Assembly (NCBI RefSeq): GCF_013409995.1
Contig: NZ_JACCBX010000001.1
Span: 184,932-248,931 of the forward strand
Direction of reading: 5' to 3'
From: Neobacillus driksii
GTDB lineage: Bacteria; Bacillota; Bacilli; Bacillales; Cytobacillaceae
Length of the DNA: 64,000 nt
The translations under genes were made by a program, and so were the position numbers. Positions 2 to 63,981 of this stretch are shown here, piece by piece (position 1 is the stretch's first letter; the number at the start of each line of letters is the position of its first letter). The notes beneath the pieces were generated by a model, which did not search any database, had not been told where the DNA came from, and saw nothing but the letters and a program-made list of their open reading frames with translations.

Positions 2-1786
2 AGCGGCCATGGAAAACAATACTTTATTAATGGAAAAATCGCTAGTGATCTTGAGTGGAACAATCGCTCAATCCAGGATATTATGCCAACCTGGCGTTGG
101 TGGATTCGCGGTGAAGGCAGCCGAATGAATGTATCCTATGATTTTGAAAAAGCATATAACGGGGGTAATTCACTGAAATTTAGCGGTACGCTTGAAGCCA
201 ACTCCGAAAATGATACTATGCTTTACAGCACCAAACTGCCGATCACCGACAGTACAAAGGTCCGCGTGATCTATGAAAATCAATCAGGTGCAGATGTTAA
301 GCTTGGTGTAGCATACAGTAAAGATTATTCGCAGGATAACATGAAATATTATTCACTTCCAGCGACAGAAAAGGGCTGGCAGACTGCCATCGTTGATTTG
401 GGAGAAGAGGCAGGAAAGACGGCGTATGCAGTAAGTCTAAAAATTAGTAACTCTGAAAAACTTGAAAACTATGCTTTTCATTTAGGTCAGCTATCCATTT
501 ATGATTCAGCTGAAGAGGTTTTATCCAAACCAGCAGATGTGGAAATTTTAGAAGAAATGACGATGTCAGCATTTGAGGCGGAAGCACGTCTAGGCTGGAC
601 CGAGCAGAAGAACGTATTGCATTATGAGATTTACCAAGAGAATGCCGATGGGGTGGAAACACTTTTAGGCGTTACACCAAATAACTATTTCTACACACCA
701 AATATTACCCGTACAAATGAAAACGCTTCGAGTAATAATCGTACATCCATAAAAGTTGTGCCGGTCAATCAAGATTATGTACGAGGTGGAGCTGCTGTTC
801 TTGACTTTGATTGGGGAATGGGTACGGATGCTACGGAGATTGAACAAAACCCAACCTCTGAGAATGTTGTTCTTGGCGCGCAAGTAACAGATGTATCCGC
901 AGAAAATGATGCTGAGCCTGCTGCGAAAGCATTAGATGGAACAGCAATCGGTAATAGTAAGTGGTGTGCAACAAATGCAAAGACTGGTTATATGACCATT
1001 GATATGGGTGAGGAGAAAACAATCAAACGCTGGCGCGTCGAACATGCTGAGTATGGTGGAGAAGCAAGTAATATGAATACCGTTGATTTCGAGCTGCTTT
1101 ATAAAAATGAAAACGGGGATTGGGTCAGTGCAAAAAGGATTACAGATAATACGAAGGCTGTGACCGATATTGTTTTAGACCAGCCTGTCACGGCTAGAGA
1201 ATTTAAGCTTCAGGTCTACAATAGTGGTACCTCTCCTTGGGGTGCGATCCGGATCTATGAATGGCAGATGTTTGAAAGTGACGCGCTGCCAAGAACGGAA
1301 AATATTATGATGCATTTTGCAAATGCTGAAAATAATACAGGTGCAAATGACCAGGTGACAATTGACAGAGTTCAACAGGGACAAACCGTTAGATTATATA
1401 ACTCCTTGGAAACTAAGAATGTTCTAGCAGAAAAGGCTGCTGAAAAAGACGGAACGATTTCCTTCGAACAGTTGGATTTTGGACTTGAAGGCGGCAGAGT
1501 CTATTATACGGTTCAAAACGAAGGTGAGAGAGAAAGTCTGAGGTTCAGCACAGCTTACTTGAATGAAAAGGTAACGGAAGTGATGCTTCAAATCAATAAC
1601 CTTCCTGCTGTTGCGGATTTGACGTTAGAGGATAAGGATATCGTCAATGATAGTAAAGTTGCCTACAACAAGCTTCACCCAACATTAAGAGAACAGGTCG
1701 CTAACTATGATACCTTGGTTCAAGCTATGGATCGTATACAGGAATTGAAAAAGAATTTTAATAATGGAAGCAAAAAAGGGGAATAG
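2..1786 (+). CDS. GH85 endo-beta-N-acetylglucosaminidase, C-terminal part (5' end outside window)
   Basis: This is the 3' portion of an endo-beta-N-acetylglucosaminidase, which cuts between the two GlcNAc residues of the N-glycan core. The frame is open from base 2, so the true start lies upstream and 594 residues are visible. The first residues, including SDLEWNNRSIQDIMPTWRWW around 47-103, match the end of the GH85 catalytic region as in streptococcal EndoD. A beta-sandwich follows, then an F5/8 type C (discoidin) carbohydrate-binding domain at about 863-1276. After that come a further beta domain and a short helical tail. There is no LPXTG anchor, so the enzyme is probably released or held by its binding domains. 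A secretion signal is expected but cannot be seen. A terminator follows directly, making this the last gene of its transcript. It would supply glycans to the importers downstream. Confidence 0.85.
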   Translation, partial: SGHGKQYFINGKIASDLEWNNRSIQDIMPTWRWWIRGEGSRMNVSYDFEKAYNGGNSLKFSGTLEANSENDTMLYSTKLPITDSTKVRVIYENQSGADVKLGVAYSKDYSQDNMKYYSLPATEKGWQTAIVDLGEEAGKTAYAVSLKISNSEKLENYAFHLGQLSIYDSAEEVLSKPADVEILEEMTMSAFEAEARLGWTEQKNVLHYEIYQENADGVETLLGVTPNNYFYTPNITRTNENASSNNRTSIKVVPVNQDYVRGGAAVLDFDWGMGTDATEIEQNPTSENVVLGAQVTDVSAENDAEPAAKALDGTAIGNSKWCATNAKTGYMTIDMGEEKTIKRWRVEHAEYGGEASNMNTVDFELLYKNENGDWVSAKRITDNTKAVTDIVLDQPVTAREFKLQVYNSGTSPWGAIRIYEWQMFESDALPRTENIMMHFANAENNTGANDQVTIDRVQQGQTVRLYNSLETKNVLAEKAAEKDGTISFEQLDFGLEGGRVYYTVQNEGERESLRFSTAYLNEKVTEVMLQINNLPAVADLTLEDKDIVNDSKVAYNKLHPTLREQVANYDTLVQAMDRIQELKKNFNNGSKKGE

Positions 1787-1826
1787 CGGGAAGCTCTGAA
1801 ACTCACATTCTTCTGACACCAAAAGG

Positions 1827-2047: not shown

Positions 2048-4741
2048 GTGAACAAGACAGCCCATATTATATCTCATTCCCATTGGGACAGGGAATGGTA
2101 CTTACCTTTTGAGAAACATCGCTATTATTTCATACAGCTTATGAATAATCTTATTGAACAGTTCAAAAAGGAAGGAAGCGGCTTTCAATCGTTTCATCTA
2201 GATGGCCAAACGGTTCTGTTGGAGGATTATTTCGCGGTTCACCCGGAGAATCGTGAAATTGTAAAGCAATTAATAAAGGAGAAAAAGCTTCATATCGGTC
2301 CTTGGTATGTACTGCAGGATGCGTTTTTAACAAGCTCCGAAGCAAATGTCAGAAACCTGTTGATTGGTATGAATGATACGAAAGCCTATGGACATGTTTC
2401 AAAAATAGGTTATTTTCCGGATACTTTTGGTATTTATGGGCAGGCACCGCAGCTTTTAAAGCAAGCGGGAATTGACACGGCTGCCTTTGGAAGAGGCGTG
2501 AAGCCGACCGGCTTTAATAACACGGTATCAGACGTTCCTGACTATGAATCACCTTATTCCGAAATGATTTGGAAATCACCTGATGGATCAAGTGTTTTAG
2601 GCATTCTTTTTGCCAATTGGTATTCCAATGGGAATGAAATTCCGGTGGATGAAGAAGAAGCGAAAGCGTTCTGGGATAAGAAGCTCCAAGATGCTGAAAA
2701 ATATGCCTCAACGAATCAGTTGTTGTTTATGAATGGCTGCGATCACCAGCCGCTGCAAAAGACGATTCCACAGGCAATTGAAACGGCAGCTGCCTTATAT
2801 CCAGATTATCAGTTTAAGCATTCTAGTTTTGATGAATATACGGAAGCGTTAATACAAGCACTGCCTGAGCAGCTGCAAGTAATCGAAGGGGAATTGCGCA
2901 ATCAGCGGACAGATGGCTGGTCCACCCTTGTAAATACTGCATCAAGCCGTATTTATTTGAAGCAAATGAATCACCACTGTCAAACTCTTTTGGAAAAGAA
3001 CGCTGAGCCGCTTGCGGCCATGTTAGCTTTAGCAGGTGGCACCTACCCGCGGGAATACATCCGCTTTATGTGGAAATCATTGATGAAGAACCACCCGCAC
3101 GACAGTATTTGCGGCTGTAGTGTCGATGAAGTCCACCGTGAAATGGTGACTCGTTTTGAAACTGTAGCGCAAATGGGAGAGGTATTTGTTGAGGAAAATG
3201 CAGCTACGCTTGCACAAACAGTTGATACTTCACAGACACCTGAAGGCGGTATTCCGCTAGTTGTCCTGAATACAACCGGATGGGAGAAAAATGAAGTCGT
3301 TTCAAAAGTAGTCGATTTGGAAAAAGTGTATTTTTCACAAATGCACTTTGAAGATATTCCCGTTTATTTGCAGGATAAACCAATGGCAGGATACAAACTG
3401 GTTGATGGTGAAGGCAGAGCGGTAGACTATCAGCTTGAAAGTCCTTCCGTCGAATTCGGCTATGACTTACCAGACGATAAATTTCGTCAGCCGTTTTTTG
3501 CCAAACGTGCAAAGCTTTCGTTTTTCGCAAAGGGAATTCCTTCATTTGGTTTTAAAACATTCTACCTTGTGCCAGGTGCCAAAGAAGAGCAGGAGTGTGA
3601 GTCTTCTTCAGAAACCCAGTTCGTAATGGAAAATGAATATGTTCATCTACAGTTTCATGAAGATGGCAGCTATGACTTAATGCATAAAGATACCGGTGAG
3701 TCCTTCCATCGTCTTGGAATTTACGAAGACACTGGGGATATTGGTAACGAATATATGTACAAGGAAGCTAAGGGGCTTGAGGCTATCACAACAAAGGGTG
3801 TACCAGCGGAATTTAGATTCCTAGAAAGAAGTACACTCAGAACAGTCCTAGAGTTTAAGCACAAATTATTGATACCGGTTTCCGCAGATGACCGCTTAGC
3901 AATGGAACGAAATAGGCTTATTTGGCATAAGGAAAGAGAAGCCGGAAGATCGGACGAAATAACAACAATCACCTTGCAAACGGTTGTCACACTGGAAAAG
4001 GGAATGAAGGGTCCAGCATTTAAGTTGACGATGGACAACCAAGCAACCGATCACCGTCTGCGTGTCTTGTTCCCAACTGATTTACAGACCGAAACACATA
4101 AAGCTGACAGTATTTTTGAAATTGTAACCCGCCCGAATACGCCAGAGAAGGAATGGGCAAATCCGAGCTTTTGTCATCACCAGCAGCGCTTTGCCAGCCT
4201 AGCGGATGAAGAAATAGGATTATCCGTAGCGACAGATGGTCTGCAAGAATATGAAATTCTCCCGGAGAATGGCACCATTGCAGTAACAGTGCTCCGTTCG
4301 ACAGCCGAGCTCGGGGACTGGGGTTATTTCCCTACACCTGAAGCACAATGCTTAGGAATGCAAACAGCAGAATGGCAAGTGCTGCCGCATGAAAAAGATG
4401 TCATCCAATCGCAGGCATATGTCGATGCGTATCAATACAAAGTGCCGCTCGTGGCTGTTCAGACAAGCGTCCATAAAGGTGATTTACCGGAAACATATCA
4501 GTTTGTTCAAACAGAATCCAATGGACTGGTATGGACATCAATGAGAATAGCGGAAGAGCATGATGATGTAATAATTCGCTGGTTTAATCCAGCCGAAGAA
4601 GAGGCACATCTTAAGGCTGATATCAAGGATTATGAATCCTTCAAGAGTAACATCCTTGAAGAAAAAACAGACGATACCCAAGATTCATATGAAGTAGGAA
4701 AATATGAAATCATCACACTGGGTTTTCATAAAAAGAGATAG
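2048..4741 (+). CDS. GH38 alpha-mannosidase, MngB-like (first copy)
   Basis: 897 residues, the usual size for MngB-type GH38 retaining alpha-mannosidases, which release mannose from alpha-mannosides with a zinc ion in the active site. The N-terminal HSHWDREWY motif carries the predicted zinc ligands His12 and Asp14. GYFPDTFG carries the predicted nucleophile Asp125. NGCDHQP and HPHDSICGCSVDE are further family blocks. There is no signal peptide, so it acts in the cytoplasm. It starts with GTG, 10 bases after AGGAG at 2033-2037. The GH125 gene follows after 12 bases, the same order as the second GH38-GH125 pair at 37584-41593. Mannosylglycerate is the substrate of E. coli MngB, but here the surrounding N-glycan enzymes favour mannose oligosaccharides. 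Confidence 0.9.
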   Translation: MNKTAHIISHSHWDREWYLPFEKHRYYFIQLMNNLIEQFKKEGSGFQSFHLDGQTVLLEDYFAVHPENREIVKQLIKEKKLHIGPWYVLQDAFLTSSEANVRNLLIGMNDTKAYGHVSKIGYFPDTFGIYGQAPQLLKQAGIDTAAFGRGVKPTGFNNTVSDVPDYESPYSEMIWKSPDGSSVLGILFANWYSNGNEIPVDEEEAKAFWDKKLQDAEKYASTNQLLFMNGCDHQPLQKTIPQAIETAAALYPDYQFKHSSFDEYTEALIQALPEQLQVIEGELRNQRTDGWSTLVNTASSRIYLKQMNHHCQTLLEKNAEPLAAMLALAGGTYPREYIRFMWKSLMKNHPHDSICGCSVDEVHREMVTRFETVAQMGEVFVEENAATLAQTVDTSQTPEGGIPLVVLNTTGWEKNEVVSKVVDLEKVYFSQMHFEDIPVYLQDKPMAGYKLVDGEGRAVDYQLESPSVEFGYDLPDDKFRQPFFAKRAKLSFFAKGIPSFGFKTFYLVPGAKEEQECESSSETQFVMENEYVHLQFHEDGSYDLMHKDTGESFHRLGIYEDTGDIGNEYMYKEAKGLEAITTKGVPAEFRFLERSTLRTVLEFKHKLLIPVSADDRLAMERNRLIWHKEREAGRSDEITTITLQTVVTLEKGMKGPAFKLTMDNQATDHRLRVLFPTDLQTETHKADSIFEIVTRPNTPEKEWANPSFCHHQQRFASLADEEIGLSVATDGLQEYEILPENGTIAVTVLRSTAELGDWGYFPTPEAQCLGMQTAEWQVLPHEKDVIQSQAYVDAYQYKVPLVAVQTSVHKGDLPETYQFVQTESNGLVWTSMRIAEEHDDVIIRWFNPAEEEAHLKADIKDYESFKSNILEEKTDDTQDSYEVGKYEIITLGFHKKR

Positions 4742-4753: not shown

Positions 4754-6079
4754 ATGACGACAGTAATTCCTGAATCCATGCAAAAACTGATTCAACATGT
4801 AAAAGAATTTTTCCCAGAGGATGAAAAATTACAGCACATGTTCGAGCAATGTTTTGTAAATACGTATACCACTACGTTGAAGAAACAAGAAGATGGGAAG
4901 ACATTCGTGATTACGGGAGATATCCCGGCGATGTGGCTGCGAGATTCAGCCGCACAGGTAAGACCTTATTTACTGGCTGCTGAAGAGGATGAAGAAATGG
5001 CTACTCTACTTGAAGGGGTGATTCGCCAACAGTTTGATTTTATCTTGCATGACCCGTATGCCAATGCGTTTAATCAAACAGCAAATGGGAAGGGACACCA
5101 AACGGACCTGACCAAGATGACACCGCATATTTGGGAGCGGAAGTATGAAATTGATTCCTTGTGCTATCCCATACAGCTTGCCTACCTATTTTGGAAGTCA
5201 ACAGGACGCACGACTCTTATAAATGACACGTTCAAACAGGTGATGGAAACGATTATTCAGGTATGGCGGACAGAGCAGGATCATGAAAATCATTCACCTT
5301 ACCGCTTTGAGCGTACGGATTGCCGTCAGTCTGATACGTTAATCCGAGAGGGCAAAGGAGGGCGGGTTGTTCCGACAGGGATGACGTGGAGTGCTTTCCG
5401 TCCAAGTGATGATGCCTGTACCTATGGATATCTTGTACCGGCTAATATGTTTGCGGTAGTTATCCTGGGGTATGCTGCGGAAATGTGTGATGTTATAAAC
5501 CAAACAGCACTCAAAGAAGAATGTCTGAAGCTGCGTGAAGAAATTCAAAGCGGAATTGAACAATACGCTAAGCTGGACCACCCGATTCATGGAGACATGT
5601 TTGTATACGAAACGGATGGCGAAGGACGAGTGAATTTAATGGATGATGCCAATGTTCCGAGCCTGCTTGCAGCACCGTACTTAGGTTATCTTCCATATGG
5701 TGATCCGACCTATTTAAACACACGCTCCTTCCTTCTAAGCAGGGATAATCCGTATTATTACGAAGGAAAATATGCAAATGGAATTGGCAGTCCGCACACT
5801 CCTGATCATTATATTTGGCATATTGCGCTTGCGATTCAAGGAATGACCACAACGAGTGAAGAAGAAAAACAAGAAATTTTAGCTTATTTTAAACAAACAG
5901 ACGGCGGTACCAATTTTATGCACGAAGGCTTTGATGCCGATTGCCCTGAGGAATTTACAAGAGACTGGTTTGCTTGGGCAAACACGATGTTTAGTGAATT
6001 CGTTTTAAGTTTAACGGGGAAAGCAGTAAAAGGCAGTCCGCTTTATGACCAATTAATGAAGAGCCATAGTAATCTATAA
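4754..6079 (+). CDS. GH125 exo-alpha-1,6-mannosidase (first copy)
   Basis: 441 residues, typical for GH125 (old name DUF1237), inverting exo-alpha-1,6-mannosidases known from Clostridium perfringens and Streptococcus pneumoniae N-glycan degradation. Signature blocks are GDIPAMWLRDSAAQVRPY (55-72), the TWSAFRPSDDACTYGYL region and IGSPHTP. Asp220 and Glu391 sit where the catalytic acid (Asp220) and base (about Glu393) of the clostridial enzyme are reported, as I recall. No signal peptide is seen. It follows the GH38 gene with a ribosome site in the 12-base gap. The pair would remove alpha-1,2/1,3 branches and then alpha-1,6 mannose from imported chains. The specific linkage is inferred from the family. 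Confidence 0.9.
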   Translation: MTTVIPESMQKLIQHVKEFFPEDEKLQHMFEQCFVNTYTTTLKKQEDGKTFVITGDIPAMWLRDSAAQVRPYLLAAEEDEEMATLLEGVIRQQFDFILHDPYANAFNQTANGKGHQTDLTKMTPHIWERKYEIDSLCYPIQLAYLFWKSTGRTTLINDTFKQVMETIIQVWRTEQDHENHSPYRFERTDCRQSDTLIREGKGGRVVPTGMTWSAFRPSDDACTYGYLVPANMFAVVILGYAAEMCDVINQTALKEECLKLREEIQSGIEQYAKLDHPIHGDMFVYETDGEGRVNLMDDANVPSLLAAPYLGYLPYGDPTYLNTRSFLLSRDNPYYYEGKYANGIGSPHTPDHYIWHIALAIQGMTTTSEEEKQEILAYFKQTDGGTNFMHEGFDADCPEEFTRDWFAWANTMFSEFVLSLTGKAVKGSPLYDQLMKSHSNL

Positions 6080-6116: not shown

Positions 6117-6737
6117 ATGAAAAAAGTTCCATGGATGATAGTCGTTTGTGAATGGATCTGGAGGGCAATCTTGGCGAATCTATACTGGATTGCCTTTACC
6201 ATCCTTGGGTTAGGGGTCTTTGGCTTTTTTCCAGCATCCATTGCCCTGTTTACCATTGTCCGGAAGTGGCTAAGGAAAGATAGTGATATACCTGTCTGGG
6301 CGACGTTTAAGCAAGTTTATTTTAAAGAATGGAAAAGAAGCAATAAAATAGGCCTTGTATTTTACAGCATTGGCCTTTTTCTCTTTGTTGATATTCGTAT
6401 TGCAGAGCAAGTCATGACGGGGATTTTTGCTAGTTTTCTATTAATCATTTTATATATCTTAGCATTTGTCCTGCTATTGGCGGTTGGTAATTTCTTTTCG
6501 CTTTATGTCCATTATCAACTCTCAACGAAAGAATATATAAAACAATCCTTTTTATTTACCTTAACGGGATTACCATCCACGATATGGATCGGAGCAGGAT
6601 TGTTCATTATTGGCATGCTTTTAATTAGGATGCCGGGCTTACTTCCGTTTATTTCTGGTGTTGCACCTGCTTACTGGATGATGAAAGTCAACTTGATTCG
6701 GTTTAACATGCTTGAGAAAAGAATGTCTCTTTCTTAG
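6117..6737 (+). CDS. DUF624 (YesL-like) membrane protein 1
   Basis: 206 residues with about five or six hydrophobic segments. The N-terminal pattern of a short amphipathic start, then FGFFPASIALFTIVRKW, is the DUF624/YesL signature shared with the proteins at 23395 and 45532. The function of this family is unknown; members nearly always sit beside LplA/LplB/YtcP-type importers and glycosidases. Here it lies inside the mannosidase operon, 37 bases after GH125. A role in assembling or modulating the importer is conceivable but unproven. Confidence 0.85.
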   Translation: MKKVPWMIVVCEWIWRAILANLYWIAFTILGLGVFGFFPASIALFTIVRKWLRKDSDIPVWATFKQVYFKEWKRSNKIGLVFYSIGLFLFVDIRIAEQVMTGIFASFLLIILYILAFVLLLAVGNFFSLYVHYQLSTKEYIKQSFLFTLTGLPSTIWIGAGLFIIGMLLIRMPGLLPFISGVAPAYWMMKVNLIRFNMLEKRMSLS

Positions 6738-6784: not shown

Positions 6785-8665
6785 ATGAAACTACACTTAA
6801 CCGGTGACCTATCCTCCATTGCCGAAGGGCTTAATCTTGTAATAGGGAATTTAACGGTTCAACTTTCAGAGGATGGCTATCCAGTACAGGTGAAACAGCG
6901 AAAGGGTCCATTGCATGTTATGAATCACAATGGCCAGGCGGAAATTAGCTTTGAGAAGCCTATTCACTTTTTTCGCGGCTTAGGATTATTCCTTGAACAT
7001 TTTAGTAAAGAGAAAGGGTTTGACTTGTCAGAGAATCCACAGTTTACAATGAGCGGTGTTATGTTGGATGCGTCTAGAAATGCAGTACCAACACTTTCTG
7101 ATGTAGAACAGCTGCTGCAAAGAATGGCTTTAATGGGACTAGATACCTTAATGCTATATACAGAGGATACGTACGAGGTAAAGGAACATCCTTATTTTGG
7201 ATATATGCGGGGAAGATATTCGGCTGAGGAGTTAAAGGCATGTGATGACTATGCGGTGAAATTAGGGATTGAAATGATCCCTTGTATTCAATCACTGGGC
7301 CATTTACGGGAAGCGCTTAAATGGAATTATGCTTCTAATTTTAAAGACACAGATGACATTTTATTGGTTGATGAGCCAAAGACATATGAATTCTTGGAAA
7401 ACTGTATAAGGGCAGCCTCTCTGCCTTTCCGTACCAAGCGAATTCATATCGGAATGGATGAAACGTTCCAGCTTGGCTTAGGGAAATATTTGGAGAAACA
7501 TGGTTATGAGAATCATATTGATATCATGAATAGGCATTTGAAAAAGGTCGTTTCTATTACGGATAAGTATGATCTAAAACCGATGATCTGGAGCGATATG
7601 TACTTTCCGTTGTTTCAGGAAAACAGCAAATATCGAGATGAGTTCGGCAAGATTCCGGAAGACATACTAACTTCCATCCCTGATGTAGAGCTTGTTTATT
7701 GGAATTATTACCGGAGAGAACAGGAAGTTTATGAGCAGGATTTTCAACACCATAAGCTGCTAGGTCAGACGCCGATTTTTGCCGGCGGTGCGTGGACATG
7801 GAATGGGATTGTCCCAAACTATGGCAAAGCTATTGCAACGACAGAGGCTGCTATGGCTGCGTGTAAAAAAGAGGGCATTAAAGAAGTGTTTGTTACACTG
7901 TGGGGCGACAATGGAGCCGAAACACCATTCTCTACATCATTGCCGATCTTACAATTATTTGCAGAGCACACCTACCATAAGGAAGTCACACTTGAACAAA
8001 CAGCGAAGCGCTATTCCTTCTGTGGTGAAGGAAACTTTGAGGATTTCATGGTCTTGAAGAAGTTGGATGAAACCCCTGGCGTCATGAAGGACAATATGAA
8101 TACATCAATGACCTCTAAAGTATTGCTGTACCAGGATATACTAATTGGATTATACGATGAAAATAGTAAAGGACTATCCTTAGGTGAGCATTATGAAAAA
8201 CTAGTTTCTGAGATTGAAAAAGCAAAATACAACAACCCAAAATGGGAAAGCCTATTTGACTTTTATGAGCAATTGGCAAGGGTTCTAAGTGTGAAGGCGG
8301 AAATCGGAATTAAGATAAAAGAAGTTTACGATCGGAAAGATTACGAGCAAATGAAATCATTCCTTAAAGAACTTGATTGGATTCAAACCAATGTCAATCT
8401 GTTACGTCAAAAGCACCGAAAAATATGGTTTGAATCGTACAAGCCATTTGGCTGGGAGGTCATCGATATTCGCTACGGCGGCGTCATTACCAGAATTGAC
8501 TCAGTAAAATATCGAATTCAAGAATGGCTCGCGGGCAGGATTTCTGCCATTGAGGAATTAGAAGAAGAACGATTACGTCATGATGGGCCTTGGGAAATTG
8601 TTGACGGCTTAGTTGGCGGCAATGTTTATCATCGTATCGTCACTGCAGGGAACTTTTCATTATAA
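6785..8665 (+). CDS. GH20 family beta-N-acetylhexosaminidase
   Basis: 626 residues without a signal peptide. A short N-terminal alpha/beta domain is followed by a TIM barrel beginning near GVMLDASRNAVPT (91-103). HIGMDET contains the GH20 catalytic Asp225-Glu226 pair, in which the Asp orients the substrate acetamido group and the Glu is the acid. Size and layout resemble the cytoplasmic GH20C enzyme of Streptococcus pneumoniae, which removes terminal beta-GlcNAc or GalNAc. A C-terminal helical region runs to the end. It sits between DUF624 and a second GH38, so the likely job is removing GlcNAc from trimmed N-glycan fragments. The exact linkage is not readable from sequence. Confidence 0.82.
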   Translation: MKLHLTGDLSSIAEGLNLVIGNLTVQLSEDGYPVQVKQRKGPLHVMNHNGQAEISFEKPIHFFRGLGLFLEHFSKEKGFDLSENPQFTMSGVMLDASRNAVPTLSDVEQLLQRMALMGLDTLMLYTEDTYEVKEHPYFGYMRGRYSAEELKACDDYAVKLGIEMIPCIQSLGHLREALKWNYASNFKDTDDILLVDEPKTYEFLENCIRAASLPFRTKRIHIGMDETFQLGLGKYLEKHGYENHIDIMNRHLKKVVSITDKYDLKPMIWSDMYFPLFQENSKYRDEFGKIPEDILTSIPDVELVYWNYYRREQEVYEQDFQHHKLLGQTPIFAGGAWTWNGIVPNYGKAIATTEAAMAACKKEGIKEVFVTLWGDNGAETPFSTSLPILQLFAEHTYHKEVTLEQTAKRYSFCGEGNFEDFMVLKKLDETPGVMKDNMNTSMTSKVLLYQDILIGLYDENSKGLSLGEHYEKLVSEIEKAKYNNPKWESLFDFYEQLARVLSVKAEIGIKIKEVYDRKDYEQMKSFLKELDWIQTNVNLLRQKHRKIWFESYKPFGWEVIDIRYGGVITRIDSVKYRIQEWLAGRISAIEELEEERLRHDGPWEIVDGLVGGNVYHRIVTAGNFSL

Positions 8666-8696
8666 AGGATAGAAATATCTAAATGGGGTGATTGGA

Positions 8697-49993: not shown

Positions 49994-50020
49994 TTTACCA
50001 TTCAAAGGGGAGATGATTTT

Positions 50021-52611: not shown

Positions 52612-52667
52612 ACTAAACTATCACCTCTCGCAAAAAATAGGGTGTAGTTTCTGAAGGGATGTTCGCG

Positions 52668-53501: not shown

Positions 53502-53518
53502 ATAGGAGGAGGGATGGT

Positions 53519-54319: not shown

Positions 54320-54345
54320 TAAAATGATTGAAAAGAGGGGTAAAC

Positions 54346-54681
54346 ATGGCGGCATATGATTTCAATTCTGACATGTCAAGCATTGTTTTGAATAATATAG
54401 ACAATGTCGCGACAATGCTCTGTGATGTGAAAGCGGGAGAAACGATTACCTACACGTTGGAAGGAAAACCACAGACATTGGTGGTAAAGGATGACATTCG
54501 TTTTGGACATAAAGTGGCATTACGTCCGATTCCAAAAGGGGAACGAATTCTGAAATATGGGGAATCAATTGGTGCTGCATCGGAGTTTATTGATCGTGGT
54601 GAACATGTACATGTTCATAATATCGAAGGGATTCGCGGTCGGGGAGATGCTCATACACAAAAAGAGGTGAAGAATTCATGA
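54346..54681 (+). CDS. UxaA-family dehydratase, small SAF-domain subunit
   Basis: 111 residues, the SAF (antifreeze-like) domain that forms the N-terminal part of altronate/galactarate dehydratases, here a separate protein. LCDVKAGETITYTLEG and the histidine-rich GEHVHVHN are typical. ATG 54346 follows AGAGGGG. It shares four bases with the large subunit gene. With it, the likely job is L-fuconate dehydration to 2-keto-3-deoxy-L-fuconate. Confidence 0.85.
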   Translation: MAAYDFNSDMSSIVLNNIDNVATMLCDVKAGETITYTLEGKPQTLVVKDDIRFGHKVALRPIPKGERILKYGESIGAASEFIDRGEHVHVHNIEGIRGRGDAHTQKEVKNS

Positions 54682-55838: not shown

Positions 55839-55882
55839 CAAATGGCACGTTGCAGATTCTGTTTATGAAAGGAATTAAAATC

Positions 55883-56656
55883 ATGAGATTAAAGGATAAA
55901 GTTGCATTAATTACGGGTTCAGGGTCAGGGATTGGCAAGTGTACAGCCATTCAGTTTGCCAAAGAAGGTGCAATGGTTGTAATCAATGATTTAGATTCGG
56001 AAAAAGGACAGGAGACGGTTCAGGAAATCGTTCAATCAGGCGGAAATGCGATTTTTATTCAGGCTGATGTAACTGACCCGGAATCTGTCCACGGCATGAT
56101 TGAACAAATCATTGAGAAGTTTTCGCGAATTGACGTTCTCTTTAATAATGCCGGGATTAGCGGGGTAGGACGTTTGCATGAAATTGAACCGGAGACGTGG
56201 GATAAAGTTATCAATGTGAACATTAAAGGGGTCTATCTGCCAAGCAAATATACGATTCCGCACATGATGGAGCAAGGAGGCGGTTCCATTATTAATATGT
56301 CATCCTGTATCGCGGAAATCGGGCTATTAAACAGGGCCTCCTATGCAGCTACAAAAGGAGCGGTACTCTCCCTGACAAAATCGATGCAGGTTGATTACGC
56401 ACCGTACAATATTCGTGTAAATGCCTTGCTTCCGGGGACGATCTTGACACCATTTGTCCAAAACTATTTAAAAACTTCCTATGATAATCCGGAGGAAGCC
56501 ATTCAGACGATTAAAACGAGACAATTAAGCGGTGAACTTGGCCGCCCGGAAGATGTGGCACAGGCAGCCTTGTTCCTAGCATCAGATGAGTCGAAATTTA
56601 TGATGGGTTCGCCTCTTTACATTGACGGCGGAGTCGTATTTGGGAAAAACGCCTAG
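55883..56656 (+). CDS. SDR family dehydrogenase, likely 2-keto-3-deoxy-L-fuconate dehydrogenase
   Basis: 257 residues with TGSGSGIGKC, Asp36 or nearby acidic residues after the second strand (NAD preference), NNAG, and catalytic Ser141, Tyr154, Lys158. ATG 55883 follows AAAGGAATT. It is followed by an FAH-family hydrolase, the enzyme expected to use its product, 2,4-diketo-3-deoxy-L-fuconate. The assignment of this step is by order only. Confidence 0.8.
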   Translation: MRLKDKVALITGSGSGIGKCTAIQFAKEGAMVVINDLDSEKGQETVQEIVQSGGNAIFIQADVTDPESVHGMIEQIIEKFSRIDVLFNNAGISGVGRLHEIEPETWDKVINVNIKGVYLPSKYTIPHMMEQGGGSIINMSSCIAEIGLLNRASYAATKGAVLSLTKSMQVDYAPYNIRVNALLPGTILTPFVQNYLKTSYDNPEEAIQTIKTRQLSGELGRPEDVAQAALFLASDESKFMMGSPLYIDGGVVFGKNA

Positions 56657-56683
56657 ATTAATGAAAGAAATGGAGGAACTACG

Positions 56684-57583
56684 TTGAAATTTTTAACGCT
56701 TGATAATGAAGGACGAAAAACCTTAGGTGTCAAAATTGAAGCGGGTATTATTGATGTGGAAGCGGCTTTGATCAGCGGAAATGATGAAAAGATCCCTACA
56801 ACCATTACAGAAGTTATTGAACATGGGAAAGAGGCAGTGGAAAAGGTTAGGGATTTTATTAACCAGTTGGATACAACGGATAATCCTCCCTATTTAGTGG
56901 ATGAGGATCATTGTACATATGGACCATGTGTTGTGCAACCGAATAAAATCATCTGTGTAGGCTTAAATTACCGTAGGCATGCAGATGAAACAAATGCACC
57001 GTATCCGCAGGTTCCGATTCTCTTCAATAAATTTAATAACACCTTAACGGGTCATGAGCGCGATATTGCGGTACCAAGCGTAACCGAGAAACTTGATTAT
57101 GAAGTAGAACTAGGGGTTGTCATTGGCAAAAAGGCAAAATATGTATCAAAAGCGGAAGCCCTTAATCATGTATTTGGCTATTGTACGGTAAATGATTTAT
57201 CGGCACGCGATCTTCAGTTAAAAACACCGCAATGGCTGTTGGGAAAAACATGTGATGATTTCAGTCCTGTCGGTCCTTATCTTGTGACTGCGGATGAGGT
57301 AGGGGATCCGCAAAACTTACAGTTAAAGACCCTTGTTAATGGCGAAGTGCGGCAAAATTCAAATACGGGGGATATGATCTTCAATGTTGCGGAAATTGTC
57401 AGCTATATCTCGCAACATATGACATTGGTTCCCGGCGATCTTATTTTAACAGGCACCCCTGAAGGTGTTGTACTAGGAAAGCCTGAAGCGGAGCAGGTGT
57501 ATCTTCAGCCAGGCGACGTTGTAACCGTGGAGATTGAAAAGTTAGGATCATTAACTAATACTTTTGTAAAAGAAACGATTTAA
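56684..57583 (+). CDS. FAH-family hydrolase, likely 2,4-diketo-3-deoxy-L-fuconate hydrolase
   Basis: 299 residues with a C-terminal fumarylacetoacetate-hydrolase domain. KLDYEVELGVVIG (Glu140, Glu142) and VNDLSARDLQ (Asp171) are the metal ligands. It would split the diketo acid to pyruvate and L-lactate, the last step of the non-phosphorylative fucose pathway. It begins with TTG after GGAGG. Confidence 0.85.
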   Translation: MKFLTLDNEGRKTLGVKIEAGIIDVEAALISGNDEKIPTTITEVIEHGKEAVEKVRDFINQLDTTDNPPYLVDEDHCTYGPCVVQPNKIICVGLNYRRHADETNAPYPQVPILFNKFNNTLTGHERDIAVPSVTEKLDYEVELGVVIGKKAKYVSKAEALNHVFGYCTVNDLSARDLQLKTPQWLLGKTCDDFSPVGPYLVTADEVGDPQNLQLKTLVNGEVRQNSNTGDMIFNVAEIVSYISQHMTLVPGDLILTGTPEGVVLGKPEAEQVYLQPGDVVTVEIEKLGSLTNTFVKETI

Positions 57584-57612: not shown

Positions 57613-57653
57613 AGAACGAAGTGAATAGTGACTTAAAAAGAGGGAGTGACAAA

Positions 57654-58931
57654 ATGATGACAAGAGAAGAGCGTGTGCAGTGGTTTATGGAGGACCGCTT
57701 CGGCTTATTTATCCATTGGGGACTTTATTCGATCCCTGCCAGAGGAGAATGGGTACGAAGCTTCGAGTGTTTAAGTAATGAAGACTACCAGCCGTATTTT
57801 GAAGAATTTAATCCAACCAGTTATAACCCGCGGGAATGGGCAAAAGCCGCTAAGGCAGCAGGACAGAAATACGTGGTCCTTACTGCGAAACACCATGACG
57901 GTTTTTGCTTATTTGATAGTAAGCTGACTGATTACAAAGCAACCAATACGCCGGCGGGGCGAGACCTCATTAAGGAATACGTGGAGGCTTTTCGTGAGGA
58001 AGGTCTAAAGGTCGGACTCTACTATTCTATTATTGATTGGTATCATGCAGATTTTCCTAAATACGGCGATCGCCAGCACCCGATGCGGAACAATGAGGAA
58101 TATAAGGATGAAGTGACCGATTTCTCCCGTTATGTAAATTACTTCCATGGGCAAGTGAAGGAACTGTTATCCAATTACGGCAAAATTGATATTCTCTGGT
58201 TTGACTTTTCCTATGACGACATGACCGGGGAGAAATGGGAGGCAACGAAACTAGTAGAAATGATTCGTTCCATCCAGCCTGATGTCCTGATTGATAATCG
58301 TCTTGGCGGTAATATTAAGTCTGCTGAGCCGGAAGTGTATGCCGGTGACTTCTACTCACCTGAACAGATTATTCCGGTCGGCGGCATCGTGAATGGAAAC
58401 GGGGAGCCGATTCCATGGGAAGCATGCATTACGTTAAATGATCATTGGGGCTATCATTCAAAGGATGTAAACTATAAATCTCCGAAACAGGTTATTCGCA
58501 CATTAGTAGAATGTGTCAGCAAGGGTGGAAATTTGCTGCTAAATGTAGGTCCGGATGCGAAAGGGGTTATTCCGAAGCAGTCCTTGGCGATTTTATCCGA
58601 AGTCGGAGAGTGGTTGGAGAAAAACGGCGACAGCATCTATGGTTGTACGGCATCATCATTGGCCAAGCCGGAGTGGGGACGTTATACACAAAAAGGCCGC
58701 TTTTTATATGCGCATGTGTATGACCGCGGCATTGGGCCAATTTACTTCCAAGGCTTAAAAGGAAAAATTAAAAAAGCACGTTTTCTGGCAGACGGCAGCG
58801 AATTGAAGGTAGAAGTACCGTGGATGGCAGAGCAGTATTCTGATATAGAAAATGGCGCATTTATCACGTTAACAGGGGCAGCATTGCCGGATGAGAGTGA
58901 CACAGTTATTGAATTGGAACTAATTGGTTAA
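57654..58931 (+). CDS. GH29 alpha-L-fucosidase 2
   Basis: 425 residues, no signal peptide. RFGLFIHWGLYS, TAKHHDGFCLFD and DILWFDFSYD are GH29 blocks; Asp184 is the expected nucleophile. It is only distantly alike to the 50021 enzyme, so the two may differ in linkage preference. ATG 57654 lies 7 bases after GGGAG; the longer frame from 57621 has no site. It sits in the fucose catabolic operon just after an ATAG repeat tract. Confidence 0.88.
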   Translation: MMTREERVQWFMEDRFGLFIHWGLYSIPARGEWVRSFECLSNEDYQPYFEEFNPTSYNPREWAKAAKAAGQKYVVLTAKHHDGFCLFDSKLTDYKATNTPAGRDLIKEYVEAFREEGLKVGLYYSIIDWYHADFPKYGDRQHPMRNNEEYKDEVTDFSRYVNYFHGQVKELLSNYGKIDILWFDFSYDDMTGEKWEATKLVEMIRSIQPDVLIDNRLGGNIKSAEPEVYAGDFYSPEQIIPVGGIVNGNGEPIPWEACITLNDHWGYHSKDVNYKSPKQVIRTLVECVSKGGNLLLNVGPDAKGVIPKQSLAILSEVGEWLEKNGDSIYGCTASSLAKPEWGRYTQKGRFLYAHVYDRGIGPIYFQGLKGKIKKARFLADGSELKVEVPWMAEQYSDIENGAFITLTGAALPDESDTVIELELIG

Positions 58932-58999: not shown

Positions 59000-59878
59000 A
59001 TGAAACTAGGAATTAGTTCTTATAGTCTATTAAAAGATATCAAAGCAGGCAAGATGACCATTCTAGACGTCGTCCAATGGGTTGCTGACAACGGCGGTGA
59101 GCATCTTGAACTTGTGCCATACGGTTTTACCGTTGTTGACCAGCCAGAGTTAGCCGACCAAATCCGCGAGAAGGCCAAGTCTGTGGGAATTGAGCTATCT
59201 GCCTACTCGTTGCCGGCAAATTTCATTCAACCAGACGAGGAAGCCTTCGAAGCTGAGGTTGAGCGTTTGAAACAGCATGTTGATATCGTGAACCGTATGG
59301 GCATCAAAATCATGCGTCATGATGTAACTGCCTTCACGCTGCCGCCGGAGCAAATGACGATCCACTATTTTGAAGAGCATTTTGATGAAATGGTGCGCGG
59401 CAGTCAATTACTTGCCGATTATGCTGCCCAATTCGGCATTACCACCACCATTGAAAATCACGGCTTTAATGTGCAATCAAGCGACCGTGTTCAGCGTGTG
59501 ATTCATGCCGTGAACCGTCCTAATTTCAAAAACACTCTTGATGTGGGGAATTTCCTTTGTGCAGATGAGGCACCGCTTGTTGGCGTTAAGAAGAATCTTC
59601 CATATGCTGCAACCGTTCATTTTAAAGATTTCTATATCCGTCCTTTCTATGAGAATCCGGGGGGCGGCGAATGGTTTGGCACTGTAAACGGAAACTATTT
59701 GCGCGGGGCTATTGTTGGCCATGGCGACATTAATATTCGTGAAATTGTGAAACTTGTCAAACGCTCCGGCTACGATGGATACCTTACAATTGAATTCGAG
59801 GGTATGGAAGATTGTCAGGTTGGGACCAAAATTGGGATGGACAATATTAGAAGATTCTGGGATGAGGTGAGTAAATAG
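59000..59878 (+). CDS. Xylose isomerase-like TIM-barrel protein 2
   Basis: 292 residues, close paralogue of the 25065 protein (same MKLGISSYSL start and the same metal blocks IENHGF, LDVGNF, HFKDF, IEFEG). AAAAAGGAG precedes its ATG. It ends one base into the next gene. Its role is not clear; the textbook fucose pathway does not need it. It may handle another sugar released with fucose. Confidence 0.83.
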   Translation: MKLGISSYSLLKDIKAGKMTILDVVQWVADNGGEHLELVPYGFTVVDQPELADQIREKAKSVGIELSAYSLPANFIQPDEEAFEAEVERLKQHVDIVNRMGIKIMRHDVTAFTLPPEQMTIHYFEEHFDEMVRGSQLLADYAAQFGITTTIENHGFNVQSSDRVQRVIHAVNRPNFKNTLDVGNFLCADEAPLVGVKKNLPYAATVHFKDFYIRPFYENPGGGEWFGTVNGNYLRGAIVGHGDINIREIVKLVKRSGYDGYLTIEFEGMEDCQVGTKIGMDNIRRFWDEVSK

Positions 59879-60765
59879 TGGCTTTTAATAAATTAACCAA
59901 CAACATTGGCGTTATTGTGGATAGTCTTCGCTTACCCATCCGCGAAGGTCTTAAAGTTGCAAAGGACCTTGGTGCAGACGGTGTCCAAATTTATGCGGTT
60001 TCAGGCGAGATGAGTCCGGAAAATTTATCCTCTTCAGCCCGGAGAGATTTAAAAGATTACATTGCGTCTTTAGGATTAGAAATTTCCGCCCTATGCGGCG
60101 ATCTCGGAGGACATGGATTTCAGGATGGCGCTGTGAACCTTGAGAAAGTGGAGAAGTCAAAGCGGATCCTTGACCTGGCTGTAGAATTAGGAACGACCAT
60201 TGTCACGACGCATATTGGCATCGTTCCTGAAGATCCTTTCTCCCGTGTGTATGAGGATATGCAAAAGGCTTGCGAGGAGCTTGGTGTATACGCAAAAAGC
60301 TTGGATGCCTTTTTTGCGATTGAAACAGGTCCAGAGACCGCTGCAACATTGAAAACATTTTTGGATTCATTAAGTACAAATGGCGTTTCTGTTAACTTTG
60401 ATCCGGCTAATATGGTGATGGTCACGGGGGATGATCCTGTGGAGGGTGTCAAACTTCTGAAGGATTACATCGTTCATACCCATGTGAAGGACGGCGCCAG
60501 ATATAAGCTGGTTGACCCACGTGATGTATATGGTGCTCTTGGCTATGGCGGAGGTGTCGATCACGAGAAGATTGCCAAAATGGTGACAGAAGGCGAATTC
60601 TTTAGAGAGCTTCCACTTGGACAAGGAAAGGTAGACTTCCCGCGCTATTTCGCAGCGCTTCAAGAAATTGGGTATAAGGGTTACTTAACGATTGAACGTG
60701 AGGTCGGGACCAACCCTGCCCATGACATTGGCGAGGCAATCAAATATATTCGCACATTTAAATAA
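59878..60765 (+). CDS. Xylose isomerase-like TIM-barrel protein 3
   Basis: 295 residues, same superfamily but a different branch. Metal-site blocks are IETGPE, NFDPANM, HVKDGAR and TIEREVG. GTG 59878 overlaps the previous stop by one base, so the two are coupled. It closes the operon before a terminator. Proteins of this branch are usually annotated as sugar phosphate isomerase/epimerase without a known reaction. Confidence 0.83.
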   Translation: MAFNKLTNNIGVIVDSLRLPIREGLKVAKDLGADGVQIYAVSGEMSPENLSSSARRDLKDYIASLGLEISALCGDLGGHGFQDGAVNLEKVEKSKRILDLAVELGTTIVTTHIGIVPEDPFSRVYEDMQKACEELGVYAKSLDAFFAIETGPETAATLKTFLDSLSTNGVSVNFDPANMVMVTGDDPVEGVKLLKDYIVHTHVKDGARYKLVDPRDVYGALGYGGGVDHEKIAKMVTEGEFFRELPLGQGKVDFPRYFAALQEIGYKGYLTIEREVGTNPAHDIGEAIKYIRTFK

Positions 60766-60828: not shown

Positions 60829-60861
60829 CTTTGAGAGTTTGATAGCTTGGAGGGAGACCGT

Positions 60862-63800
60862 TTGCAGAGAATCCACCGATTGATTCAGTATTTAAACCAA
60901 CACCAAGTCTTAGAGTCCGTTCAAATCCCCGATTGGCGGGCAAAACGAGGGTTTTACGCCGAGCCATTAACGTATGAATTTGAATCTGAAGGAACCATCC
61001 TTGCGAATGAAGGGGACTTGTTAATCCATTCAGGAACCACGATGTTTTTGGAAAAAGAAGTGTCCATCCCAAAAGGGTGGCGAAATCGACCATTTGGCTT
61101 CACCTTTTTAGTTGGAGCACAGGGACGCCCCACCAACCATGAGGGATTAGTTTCATTAGATGGACATGCCTATCATGGGATTGACCGCAACCGGAGCTAT
61201 GTCCCTTTTCCGGAAAATGTACGGGGACAGGAAAAAGTCCAGATCAAAATTGAATTATTTAACCCCGCTGCCCAATCGGTTGATGAGTTAAATCATCAAA
61301 ATGAACCGGCAGAATTTGACCCGCCGCCCCTTACGCTTCTAAAAGGGCGAATTGAGCTGCCCAATACAGCTGTCCAAAGTCTTTTGGCGACCGTGAAATG
61401 TTACTTTGAAGCCAGCAAGTTGCTGCCGGAAGGTAACCTGGAAAAATACAAAATGATCACGGAATTGACAGAGGTGTATCACAAGATTCTTTTTGAAAAA
61501 CCGGAGGCCCTAACCAATCCATCATGGGTTGCTGAGATAGAAGATGACTTAAAGATAAAGCTTGCAGACATAGCGGGAAGTTCGCAGGGACAGATGCTGA
61601 TGGTTGGACAATCCCATATCGATTTAGCCTGGCTTTGGCCTATGAAGGAAGCCGTTCGTAAGTGCAGCCGGACCTTTTCGACGATGAGTACATTGCTTGA
61701 TGAAAATCCGAACTTTACCTATGCCCAGAGCCAGCCTCAAGCTTACGCATTTGTAAAAGAGCATTATCCTGAAATCTATCAGAGGGTAAAAAAGCATATT
61801 GCGGATGGCCGTTGGGAAGTGGTCGGAGGCATGTGGGTGGAGCCTGATTTAAATATGCCTTCCGGTGAATCATTAGTACGTCAGCTCTTATATGGCATGA
61901 AATTTTATAAGGATGAATTCGGGGTTCAGCCAAAAATTGAGTGGCTACCGGATACATTTGGATATTGTGCCTCTCTGCCGCAATTGTTAAAGAAAGCGGG
62001 GCTGGATTACTTCATGACCACGAAAATGAATTGGAATGATACGAACCCCTTTCCCTATGATTTGTTTTATTGGGAAGGCATCGATGGGACGCGGGTCCTT
62101 TCCTATTTGAATCATGGGCTGAATGAATATACCCATCCAAAGGAAATTGAGAATCACTGGAATCATTTTAAGCAAAAGAAAGACTATCCCAAACAGATGC
62201 TGTTATATGGTCATGGAGATGGCGGCGGCGGAGTGACACAGGAAATGATTGACTATCTGGATCGTTCCTCCTCACTTCCTGGCCTGCCGGCTGTAGTGAA
62301 TAGTACAGCCCATGAATTCTTCGATGGCATACGCCAAGCAGACCCACATTTGCCTACATGGGTAGGGGATCTGTATTTAGAGCTTCATCGGGGAACCTAT
62401 ACCACACATGCCCGGAATAAGAAATGGAATCGCAAAGCGGAAGTTCTTTACCGGGAGGTAGAAGTTTGGAGCAGCATCGCTTCAAGCTTTACAGGGATTA
62501 GCCCTCTTCCGTCATTGGAGGAAGGTTGGAAATTACTTCTGTTAAACCAATTTCATGATATTATTCCAGGCACTTCTACTCCGGAAGTTTATTTAAAGTC
62601 AGAAGTGGATTACAATGAAATTTTTGAACTTGGTGAAAAGGTGAAACGGGATGCCCTGCGTTCGTTAGAAAGGCAAATTAAGACGGTAGGTGAAGGGGAT
62701 CCTCTACTCTTGTTTAACAGTTTATCCTGGAAACGATCAGAAACGGTGAGACTGGTTGGCGGTCTTGAATTAGCCGGAAAGGTCGCGGTCAATCAGGATG
62801 GTGAGATCCTTTCAACGGACATCCTTCCATTGGATCATGGCCAACTGGAATTATCCTTTTATGTTCCTGACATTCCCGAAATGGGGTACACGACAGTATG
62901 GTTGAAAAATAGGGAAAATCCGCTTATCCATAATCAAGATGAATTCGGTCACGAATGGGAAACAGCCTTTTATTTAGTGAACTGGAACGAAAAGGGGGAA
63001 ATTTCCCGTCTGTATGACAAGTTGGCCCAGCGTGATGTCCTGTGTAATGGCGGGGCTGCCAATCAGCTTCAATTATTTCATGACCGTCCGCTCTACTGGG
63101 ATGCATGGGATATTGACCCGAAATTTGAAGACCAGCCTGCAGAAACGGCGGTCCTATTAGAGAAAGGGATTCAAAAAGGCGAGACGAAGGATGTCATTCG
63201 TTTTAAATGGCAGCTGGCAGAATCCGTTATCGAACAAGATATGATTCTGTACCATCAAAGTAAACGAATTGACTTCCAAACGAAAGTAGATTGGCAAGAA
63301 CGGCATAAACTATTAAAAGTGGCATTCCCTGTCGAGGTAGTAAGTCATAAAGCGACGTATGAAATTCCATTCGGATCAGTCGAAAGGGCAACCCATACCA
63401 ATACTAGCTGGGAAAAGGCACAATTTGAGGTTTGCGGGCACCGCTTTGCGGACCTTTCGGAAGCGGGCTATGGTGTGAGTTTGTTAAATGACTGCAAGTA
63501 TGGATATGACGTGAAAAAAAACGTATTGCGGCTTTCTTTATTACGTGCACCGAAATGGCCGGATCCGGGGGCGGATCTCGGGCATCACGAATTTACCTAC
63601 TCTCTTTTCCCACATGAAGGAGACTTCCGAGAGGCGGAAGTAGTGAAGCGGGGCTATGAGTTGAATCATCCTGTAGTGGTCGTAAGCACCTCTTCCCATA
63701 AAGGAAATCTTCCAAGTTCGAATTCCTTTATCGCGACACGGTCTAAACATGTCATTCTTGATACAGTGAAAACCTCCGAGGATGGCACAGGACTTACGCT

Positions 63801-63981
63801 TAGAATGTATGAATCAAGCGGCGGCAGAGAAGAAATACAAATCAATTTGGCGAAGTCCGTTCATTCTGCAGCTGAAACGAATCTGTTGGAGGAGAGACAA
63901 GCCGTTATCCCGATGCAAGGGAGCAAACTATTCCTCCATTTGAAGCCATTTGAAGTGAAAACTATTGTAGTACCCAACTAG
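60862..63981 (+). CDS. GH38 alpha-mannosidase, Ams1-like (second copy)
   Basis: 1039 residues with the same layout as the 8697 enzyme. VGQSHIDLAWLW holds zinc ligands His252 and Asp254; the earlier His of the motif is Gln here, which is not a ligand in the fly Golgi enzyme. WLPDTFGYCASLPQ has the nucleophile Asp364; YGHGDGGGG is conserved. TTG 60862 lies 8 bases after GGAGG; the TTG at 60847 overlaps that site. No signal peptide. It follows a terminator, so it probably has its own promoter, which I could not identify in the 33-base gap. Confidence 0.86.
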   Translation: MQRIHRLIQYLNQHQVLESVQIPDWRAKRGFYAEPLTYEFESEGTILANEGDLLIHSGTTMFLEKEVSIPKGWRNRPFGFTFLVGAQGRPTNHEGLVSLDGHAYHGIDRNRSYVPFPENVRGQEKVQIKIELFNPAAQSVDELNHQNEPAEFDPPPLTLLKGRIELPNTAVQSLLATVKCYFEASKLLPEGNLEKYKMITELTEVYHKILFEKPEALTNPSWVAEIEDDLKIKLADIAGSSQGQMLMVGQSHIDLAWLWPMKEAVRKCSRTFSTMSTLLDENPNFTYAQSQPQAYAFVKEHYPEIYQRVKKHIADGRWEVVGGMWVEPDLNMPSGESLVRQLLYGMKFYKDEFGVQPKIEWLPDTFGYCASLPQLLKKAGLDYFMTTKMNWNDTNPFPYDLFYWEGIDGTRVLSYLNHGLNEYTHPKEIENHWNHFKQKKDYPKQMLLYGHGDGGGGVTQEMIDYLDRSSSLPGLPAVVNSTAHEFFDGIRQADPHLPTWVGDLYLELHRGTYTTHARNKKWNRKAEVLYREVEVWSSIASSFTGISPLPSLEEGWKLLLLNQFHDIIPGTSTPEVYLKSEVDYNEIFELGEKVKRDALRSLERQIKTVGEGDPLLLFNSLSWKRSETVRLVGGLELAGKVAVNQDGEILSTDILPLDHGQLELSFYVPDIPEMGYTTVWLKNRENPLIHNQDEFGHEWETAFYLVNWNEKGEISRLYDKLAQRDVLCNGGAANQLQLFHDRPLYWDAWDIDPKFEDQPAETAVLLEKGIQKGETKDVIRFKWQLAESVIEQDMILYHQSKRIDFQTKVDWQERHKLLKVAFPVEVVSHKATYEIPFGSVERATHTNTSWEKAQFEVCGHRFADLSEAGYGVSLLNDCKYGYDVKKNVLRLSLLRAPKWPDPGADLGHHEFTYSLFPHEGDFREAEVVKRGYELNHPVVVVSTSSHKGNLPSSNSFIATRSKHVILDTVKTSEDGTGLTLRMYESSGGREEIQINLAKSVHSAAETNLLEERQAVIPMQGSKLFLHLKPFEVKTIVVPN

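Follow-up and report, generated by a model that had tools for sequence, protein, structure and literature searches.

A putative N-glycan utilization island in Neobacillus driksii and a candidate core beta-mannosidase of an unnamed clan GH-A family

A stretch of 64,000 nucleotides (hereafter, the window) of the 6.5-Mb genome of Neobacillus driksii is occupied by a dense island of sugar genes. Coding sequence makes up about 95% of the window and, according to the list of its open reading frames (ORFs), 45 of the 46 lie on the forward strand, the only exception being the gene of a LacI-family regulator. The enzyme classes were assigned from Pfam matches above the curated cut-off in an hmmscan of the 46 ORFs, and chance is not an issue for them, since the E-values run down to 5e-164. 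The island consists of three modules, each provided with its own regulator and importer (Table 1): module 1 (2-23148) harbors an N-glycan set of streptococcal type, module 2 (23392-44746) a glycosylasparaginase gene (AGA) next to a large ORF here named GHAx, and module 3 (45526-63981) fucose genes and candidate LacI operators. Four-base overlaps occur at the GHAx-AGA, GH38c-GH125b, Gfo1-SIE1 and SAF-GDAH junctions, which fits an operon organization. The whole points to a pathway for feeding on N-glycans, a reading to which we assign a probability of roughly 0.7.

A previous reading of the same letters (the sequence-only reading) had described an island of a Bacillaceae member, with parts for complete N-glycan breakdown. 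The family was correct (the genus is Neobacillus), and all the enzyme classes that it named, the three importers and the three regulator systems are recovered by Pfam. Its list did not mention the GH1 enzyme, the two ROK kinases, two Gfo/Idh oxidoreductases, three isomerase-like genes, the carrier of the major facilitator superfamily (MFS), the EEP-family hydrolase and, above all, the 1059-aa GH-A-like ORF. As for the GH85 enzyme, only the C-terminal 594 of its 1005 residues are in the window, while nearly all of the catalytic domain (residues 117-418) is encoded upstream of it. The adjective "complete" has to be dropped: none of the parts then listed is predicted to cleave the bond of Man-beta-1,4-GlcNAc (GlcNAc, N-acetylglucosamine), for which the 1059-aa ORF is a candidate only, a general Pfam scan gave no sialidase-type match among the 46 window proteins, and the genome gave no GH92 match.

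Table 1. Features of the island and of its surroundings (positions are those of the window, unless a locus is given).
Feature	Position	Strand	Basis
GH85 endo-beta-N-acetylglucosaminidase, C-terminal part (GH85_C, F5/8C)	2..1786	+	Pfam
GH38 alpha-mannosidase, pair 1	2048..4741	+	Pfam
GH125 alpha-1,6-mannosidase family, pair 1	4754..6079	+	Pfam, E 9e-158
DUF624 membrane protein	6117..6737	+	Pfam
GH20C-type beta-hexosaminidase, no signal peptide seen by eye	6785..8665	+	Pfam
Long GH38, yeast Ams1 type	8688..11807	+	Pfam; best PDB match Ams1 fusion, E 5e-135
ABC importer 1: two permeases, NgtS-like lipoprotein (14026-15480)	11953..15480	+	Pfam
Histidine kinase and AraC-type response regulator	15541..18841	+	Pfam
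GH1 beta-glycosidase	18888..20300	+	Pfam; nearest PDB 4B3K (beta-glucosidase), 5FOO (6-phospho-beta-D-glycosidase)
Two ROK-family sugar kinases	20367..22182	+	Pfam; NCBIfam matches all below cut-offs
Type I mannose-6-phosphate isomerase (ManA)	22189..23148	+	Pfam
DUF624, Gfo/Idh oxidoreductase, sugar isomerase/epimerase-like, Gfo/Idh	23392..27009	+	Pfam
AraC-type regulator, long N-terminal part	27236..29539	+	Pfam
ABC importer 2: two permeases, lipoprotein	29642..33394	+	Pfam
GHAx, candidate intracellular beta-mannosidase for Man-beta-1,4-GlcNAc	ORF 33401-36580 (1059 aa), likely start ATG 33479	+	Fold, invariant residues, neighbors
GHAx putative acid/base E490	34946-34948	+	Aligned by hidden Markov model to NEP motif of GH5 mannanases; numbering from ATG 33479
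GHAx putative nucleophile E655	35441-35443	+	Placed by position only; numbering from ATG 33479
Glycosylasparaginase (AGA), 4-base overlap with GHAx	36577..37506	+	PDB 1P4K, E 1e-58
GH38-GH125 pair 2	37584..41593	+	Pfam
Small GH20	41617..42645	+	Pfam; PDB 9FYL, E 3e-66
MFS carrier, candidate importer of GlcNAc-Asn	42703..43917	+	Pfam; analogy with AlfH (PMC6960285)
EEP-family (endonuclease/exonuclease/phosphatase) hydrolase	43952..44746	+	Pfam
Candidate LacI operator ATTACCGGTAACAT	45065..45078	+	Pattern search
Candidate LacI operator ATTACCGGTAACAT, just upstream of DUF624 gene	45492..45505	+	Pattern search
DUF624 and ABC importer 3 (46267-49937): two permeases, lipoprotein (48303-49937)	45526..49937	+	Pfam
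GH29 alpha-L-fucosidase a	49976..51394	+	Pfam, PDB
LacI-family regulator	51434..52507	-	Pfam
Two operator-like palindromes, 2-3 mismatches, between LacI gene and fucose operon	52528-52543, 52598-52613		Pattern search
Non-phosphorylating L-fucose pathway: amidohydrolase (lactonase), SDR, SAF and GD_AH_C dehydratase, SDR, FAH-type hydrolase	52659..57583	+	Pfam
GH29 alpha-L-fucosidase b	57621..58931	+	Pfam; PDB 6GN6, E 3e-218
Two sugar isomerase/epimerase-like proteins, also in relatives	59000..60765	+	Pfam
Long GH38, 38% identical to Ams1-type GH38	60847..63981	+	Pfam
Outside the window: GH3, GH123, second GH85, sulfatase, GH2 lacZ	L008:8942-11236, L009:1957-8257, L007:12745-17662

The catabolism of N-glycans is well supported, because the GH85 enzyme has a signal-like N-terminus, the binding protein of one importer is of the NgtS type, the pneumococcal gene set is present and AGA is closer to solved glycosylasparaginases than to isoaspartyl peptidases. 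Signal peptides and localization were judged from the N-termini by eye, with no predictor: that of GH85, upstream of the window, looks signal-peptide-like, as fits the secreted GH85 of a CPL/TCS07-type system, none of the other island hydrolases has such a terminus, and the three binding proteins look like lipoproteins. The binding protein of importer 1 is a relative of NgtS (5SWA, E 9e-89), in agreement with an NgtS-P1-P2 importer, and a GH38-GH125 pair, GH20C and ROK are all located in module 1, as in CPL/TCS07. According to the available text of PMC7075642, the TCS07 regulon of Streptococcus pneumoniae comprises NgtP1-P2-S, EndoD GH85, GH20, ROK, GH38, GH125, GH92, GH29, BglA3, ManA and ScrK. 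Module 1 shares with this system GH85, the NgtS-type importer, GH20C, ROK, GH38, GH125, the two-component system, GH1 and ManA; S. pneumoniae also has GH92, whereas the island adds Ams1-type GH38s, a candidate for the Man1GlcNAc step, a glycosylasparaginase and fucose catabolism. By analogy with Ams1, which the accessible part of PMC7609781 relates to oligosaccharide catabolism, the long GH38s may stand in for the missing GH92. An operon of Bifidobacterium longum joins three GH38 and a GH125, two families that also stand together in the island (available portions of PMC10154615 and PMC6160142).

The same set is found in genomes of about 2 Mb belonging to the same class: at the loci L177, L179 and L180 the response regulator, kinase, importer, GH20C, GH38 and GH125 stand in a run, and L181 shows GH125, GH38, ROK, GH20C and importer, ending in the kinase. 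The permeases of importer 1 are 51-56% identical to their counterparts in L177 and L179-L181, and the histidine kinase and response regulator align with those of the same genomes over part of their length only. The GH38 at 37584, which shares 51% identity with its paralog of pair 1, is 47-50% identical to the GH38s adjoining GH125 in L177 and L179-L183.

From gene content, family membership, fold model, invariant residues and conserved linkage, we infer all the substrates, the localization and the regulation of the following pathway. Extracellular GH85 would cut between both core GlcNAc residues, and the NgtS-like and the two other importers would take up the released mannose-rich glycan and further fragments. 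Inside the cell, the GH38 and GH125 enzymes would trim alpha-mannose down to Man-beta-1,4-GlcNAc, which GHAx, as a member of an unnamed family of clan GH-A, might split into mannose and GlcNAc; GH20 enzymes might take off antennal or chitobiose GlcNAc, and the ROK kinases and ManA would route mannose to glycolysis. The protein stump, (Fuc-)GlcNAc-Asn, would be imported after proteolysis, defucosylated by GH29 and split by glycosylasparaginase, the fucose being converted to pyruvate and lactate by the oxidative pathway.

The structural model of GHAx places it in clan GH-A. Its full-length fold is closest to the GH164 beta-mannosidase Bs164, with which the model has in common the GH-A barrel, a trimerization-like domain and a beta-sandwich; the identity between the two is just 13%, and GHAx has an extra N-terminal 42M/ThuA-like part and an Ig-like part. 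The top rows of the VIA fold comparison are mostly mannan-active enzymes. Both putative catalytic residues, E490 and E655, are invariant in 34/34 aligned GHAx sequences. A profile of GHAx (A1) matches 6T5O, with the best stretch in the 42M-like region; 6T5O is not listed at E 0.05 with a second profile (A2), and the GH5 Pfam match to GHAx (P0001) is weak (20.6 bits, cut-off 23.5). In the available text of PMC10154615 and PMC6160142, Cutibacterium acnes has a GH38/GH5_18/GH20 triad, in which GH5_18 holds the place that GHAx takes in the island; CaMan5_18 is described as a bare barrel (PMC8233224, as far as available), whereas GHAx adds GH42/GH164-like and further domains.

GHAx homologs were found in 6/193 genomes of the family, a count that includes the present genome, and all six belong to a single genus. 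Many Paenibacillaceae loci share the order GH38d-GH125-GHAx-GH38c, and GH38 or GH125 is near GHAx in 28/31 loci (26 of the 29 GHAx loci of the class sample, with G291, G424 and G433 left out, plus five of Neobacillus) and in 46/80 loci of a second set, formed by named species. GH125 is present in 28/29 of the GHAx genomes of the class sample vs. 74/398 overall, as matched by hand from two lists (in G522, the two genes are on different contigs). This association differs from the two larger GH164 operons, which in the available text of PMC7105311 are without alpha-mannose families. It is a tentative assignment, somewhat short of even odds, that GHAx splits Man-beta-1,4-GlcNAc into mannose and GlcNAc. 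Slightly more tentative is the broader proposal of a new GH family. On this view, GHAx would be an intracellular GH-A beta-mannosidase carrying the 42M-like domain in duplicate, and would take the final mannose off the core of N-glycans in Bacillaceae and Paenibacillaceae, adding a fourth solution to GH2, GH5_18 and GH130; the surrounding island would carry core-fucosylated N-glycans in full, together with the GlcNAc-Asn link, as far as central metabolism. The GHAx family is probably a wider one of beta-mannoside or beta-glycoside hydrolases with a large N-glycan branch.

Several points weigh against a beta-mannosidase. GH42 beta-galactosidases fit the GHAx model within 1 Z, and are also among the tied VIA rows; Foldseek places a beta-1,2-glucosyltransferase and GH42 above Bs164, and GH42 is the weak best Pfam match in 17/17 sequences scanned. 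In the set of named species, 34/80 GHAx loci have neither GH38 nor GH125 in the fetched flanks, some of which are short, and ten scanned neighbors (from loci without these genes and from others) include rhamnogalacturonan lyase, GH67, GH35, GH2 and carriers, so that the family may act on other beta-glycosides. The association with GH38/GH125 is in part shared descent within Paenibacillus. The genome contains eight matches to the GH5 model, GHAx and the GH1 enzyme among them, and the latter is another possible hydrolase of Man-beta-1,4-GlcNAc; its gene comes after that of the response regulator, and the TCS07 regulon includes BglA3, annotated as a glycosyl hydrolase family protein and called a 6-phospho-beta-glucosidase in a title cited there (PMC7075642, available text). 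GHAx might thus be a beta-galactosidase or another beta-glycosidase for antennae or plant glycans, with GH1 or nothing cleaving Man-beta-1,4-GlcNAc, as in the pneumococcus. We consider this unlikely, given the GH38 and GH125 neighbors at most of the 31 loci, the mannan-active enzymes prevailing in the top VIA rows (even though GH42 is tied with them) and the nearest structures of GH1, a beta-glucosidase and a 6-phospho-beta-glycosidase; as far as the island is concerned, it agrees with N-glycan feeding and does not exclude it. In S. pneumoniae no candidate for this step was known in 2017, according to the available text of PMC5215778. No match to GHAx was listed for the small genomes (about 2 Mb) that carry the streptococcal-type cluster, and hence GHAx would not solve the pneumococcal case.

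The second half of the pathway depends on AGA, which scores 202 bits against the solved bacterial glycosylasparaginase and at most 129 bits against isoaspartyl peptidases and one relative. T151, in its HDT motif, aligns with the start of the solved beta chains, and the N-terminal Trp is kept; we take T151 of the HDT motif to be the nucleophile at the autocleavage site, and the Trp to have a role as well. AGA is thus predicted to be a glycosylasparaginase (EC 3.5.1.26) rather than an isoaspartyl peptidase. The gene is rare, being present in 4/193 genomes of the family (in one of these at only 38% identity) and, at E <= 1e-20, in 13/398 of the class sample, with at least 62% identity in six, its own included.

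The alf-2 operon of Lacticaseibacillus casei, acting on Fuc-alpha-1,6-GlcNAc-Asn, has in common with the island an MFS carrier, GH29, glycosylasparaginase and ROK (available text of PMC6960285). By analogy with its carrier, we infer that the MFS protein of module 2 imports GlcNAc-Asn. L. casei excretes fucose according to the same text, whereas the island has an oxidative fucose pathway nearby; unlike alf-2, it gave no PepV (M20) or AsdA Pfam match among the window proteins, and GH29b fits 6GN6 far better than AlfC of L. casei. It must be stressed that the specificities of the MFS carrier and of the GH29 enzymes, alpha-1,6 included, are guesses, and this tells against the reading of the island as a whole. 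G121 and G143 likewise have the gene of the EEP hydrolase next to that of the MFS carrier.

A second glycosylasparaginase (AGA2), 63% identical to AGA, is encoded on contig C1 of the same genome (L092:4953-13351), about 80 kb upstream of the window. It is embedded in a phosphotransferase system (PTS) cluster with the order GH84, PRD regulator, AGA2, EIIC, CutC, EIIB; the AGA-EIIC-CutC array is repeated in L093, L204 and L205, and AGA has EIIC nearby in L202. These arrangements hint at PTS uptake of a GlcNAc-Asn-like glycoamino acid.

In module 3, homologs of FucA, FucB, FucC, FucF and FucG are present at the superfamily level, the dehydratase being of the altronate type (SAF and GD_AH_C), a set that agrees with route 3 of the non-phosphorylating pathway (PMC11199699, available text). 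As for the fucose mutarotase FucM, no such Pfam match was obtained among the 46 window proteins, to which the search was confined. Two exact copies of the candidate operator ATTACCGGTAACAT precede the DUF624-importer operon, and weaker forms are located before the first permease gene of importer 3 and between the LacI gene and the fucose operon. At up to three mismatches, the window contains 22 matches vs. 7.8 expected, a count reached by 0/100 shuffles, in which a palindrome may be counted on both strands and scattered weak matches inside genes are included. In G117, TTACCGGTAA lies ahead of the corresponding DUF624 gene, and in G143 it adjoins the gene for LacI. Since the genome-wide count at one mismatch is no higher than that of the control (8 vs. 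9), only the placed sites carry meaning.

Five Neobacillus relatives, chosen for having GHAx, were compared, scoring a gene as present in the fetched stretches at >=50% identity over 30% of the query; in none of the five does the fetched stretch contain the full island. That of N. kokaensis (G111) holds much of module 3 together with module 1, from which ManA and one ROK are missing, and has no AGA or fucose operon; in that of N. niacini (G117), AGA is accompanied by most of module 3 and by portions of module 2, with no GH38 or GH125; those of G121, G143 and G101 contain only parts. The island is a mosaic: GHAx lies inside module 3 in N. kokaensis and adjoins GH38c-GH125b and GH29b in N. bataviensis, and AGA adjoins GH29b in N. 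niacini but overlaps GHAx here. This occurrence of the modules apart in the relatives, the three separate regulators and the confinement of the good LacI operator candidates to module 3 might suggest that the modules for N-glycans, fucosides and glycoamino acids are independent neighbors without a common pathway. We regard this as rather improbable, since the pieces recombine among themselves in N. kokaensis, N. bataviensis and N. niacini. One Paenibacillus strain has GH38 in a xanthan locus and GH125 in a cluster predicted to act on alpha-mannan (PMC12827396, available text). Even so, it is very improbable that the island serves xanthan side chains or mannan-type polysaccharides of fungi or plants instead of glycoproteins, as no role in the use of such substrates is known for GH85, an NgtS-type importer or glycosylasparaginase, GH76 and GH92 were not found in the genome, and no PL8, GH88 or GH9 match exists among the window proteins.

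The sequence-only reading had stated that partial sets were known and that none with all these parts side by side was known to be described in Bacillaceae. The former statement is right, the glycan half being known from streptococci and bifidobacteria, and the glycoamino-acid half from L. casei (PMC6960285, available text). The latter stands in part: among the matches listed, no open-licence title or abstract joins the glycan half, the glycoamino-acid half and fucose catabolism in a Bacillaceae, and no open-licence paper linking glycosylasparaginase with Bacillus, fucosidase and N-glycan was found, but the sequenced N. kokaensis carries a close block (GH85, three GH38, GH125, GH20, two GH29 and GHAx). 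What seems new here is the union of the two halves with fucose catabolism, plus GHAx as a candidate new family. The N-glycan systems of the cited literature were mostly described in pathogens and in bacteria of the gut and skin; if the proposed reading is true, the same logic operates in a Neobacillus, which unites at one place the genes for the glycan and those for the GlcNAc-Asn stump, and GHAx offers an enzyme that can be tested for the Man-beta-1,4-GlcNAc step, which is unexplained in similar systems of some other bacteria. Enzymes for core fucose and core mannose are also useful for glycoprotein engineering.

Lastly, the Gfo/Idh and isomerase/epimerase-like genes (24082-27009, 59000-60765) recur near GHAx in other Neobacillus genomes, SIE2 being present in 5/5 relatives; the combination is, we presume, reminiscent of 3-keto-glycoside chemistry. 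Sugar genes run on beyond the window, with GH3 directly after the last GH38, followed by GH123 and a second GH85, and with a sulfatase and a GH2 lacZ upstream. On another contig (G000:C5:116000-135000, L010), a further GH38 and a further GH125 are present, with importer permease genes between them.

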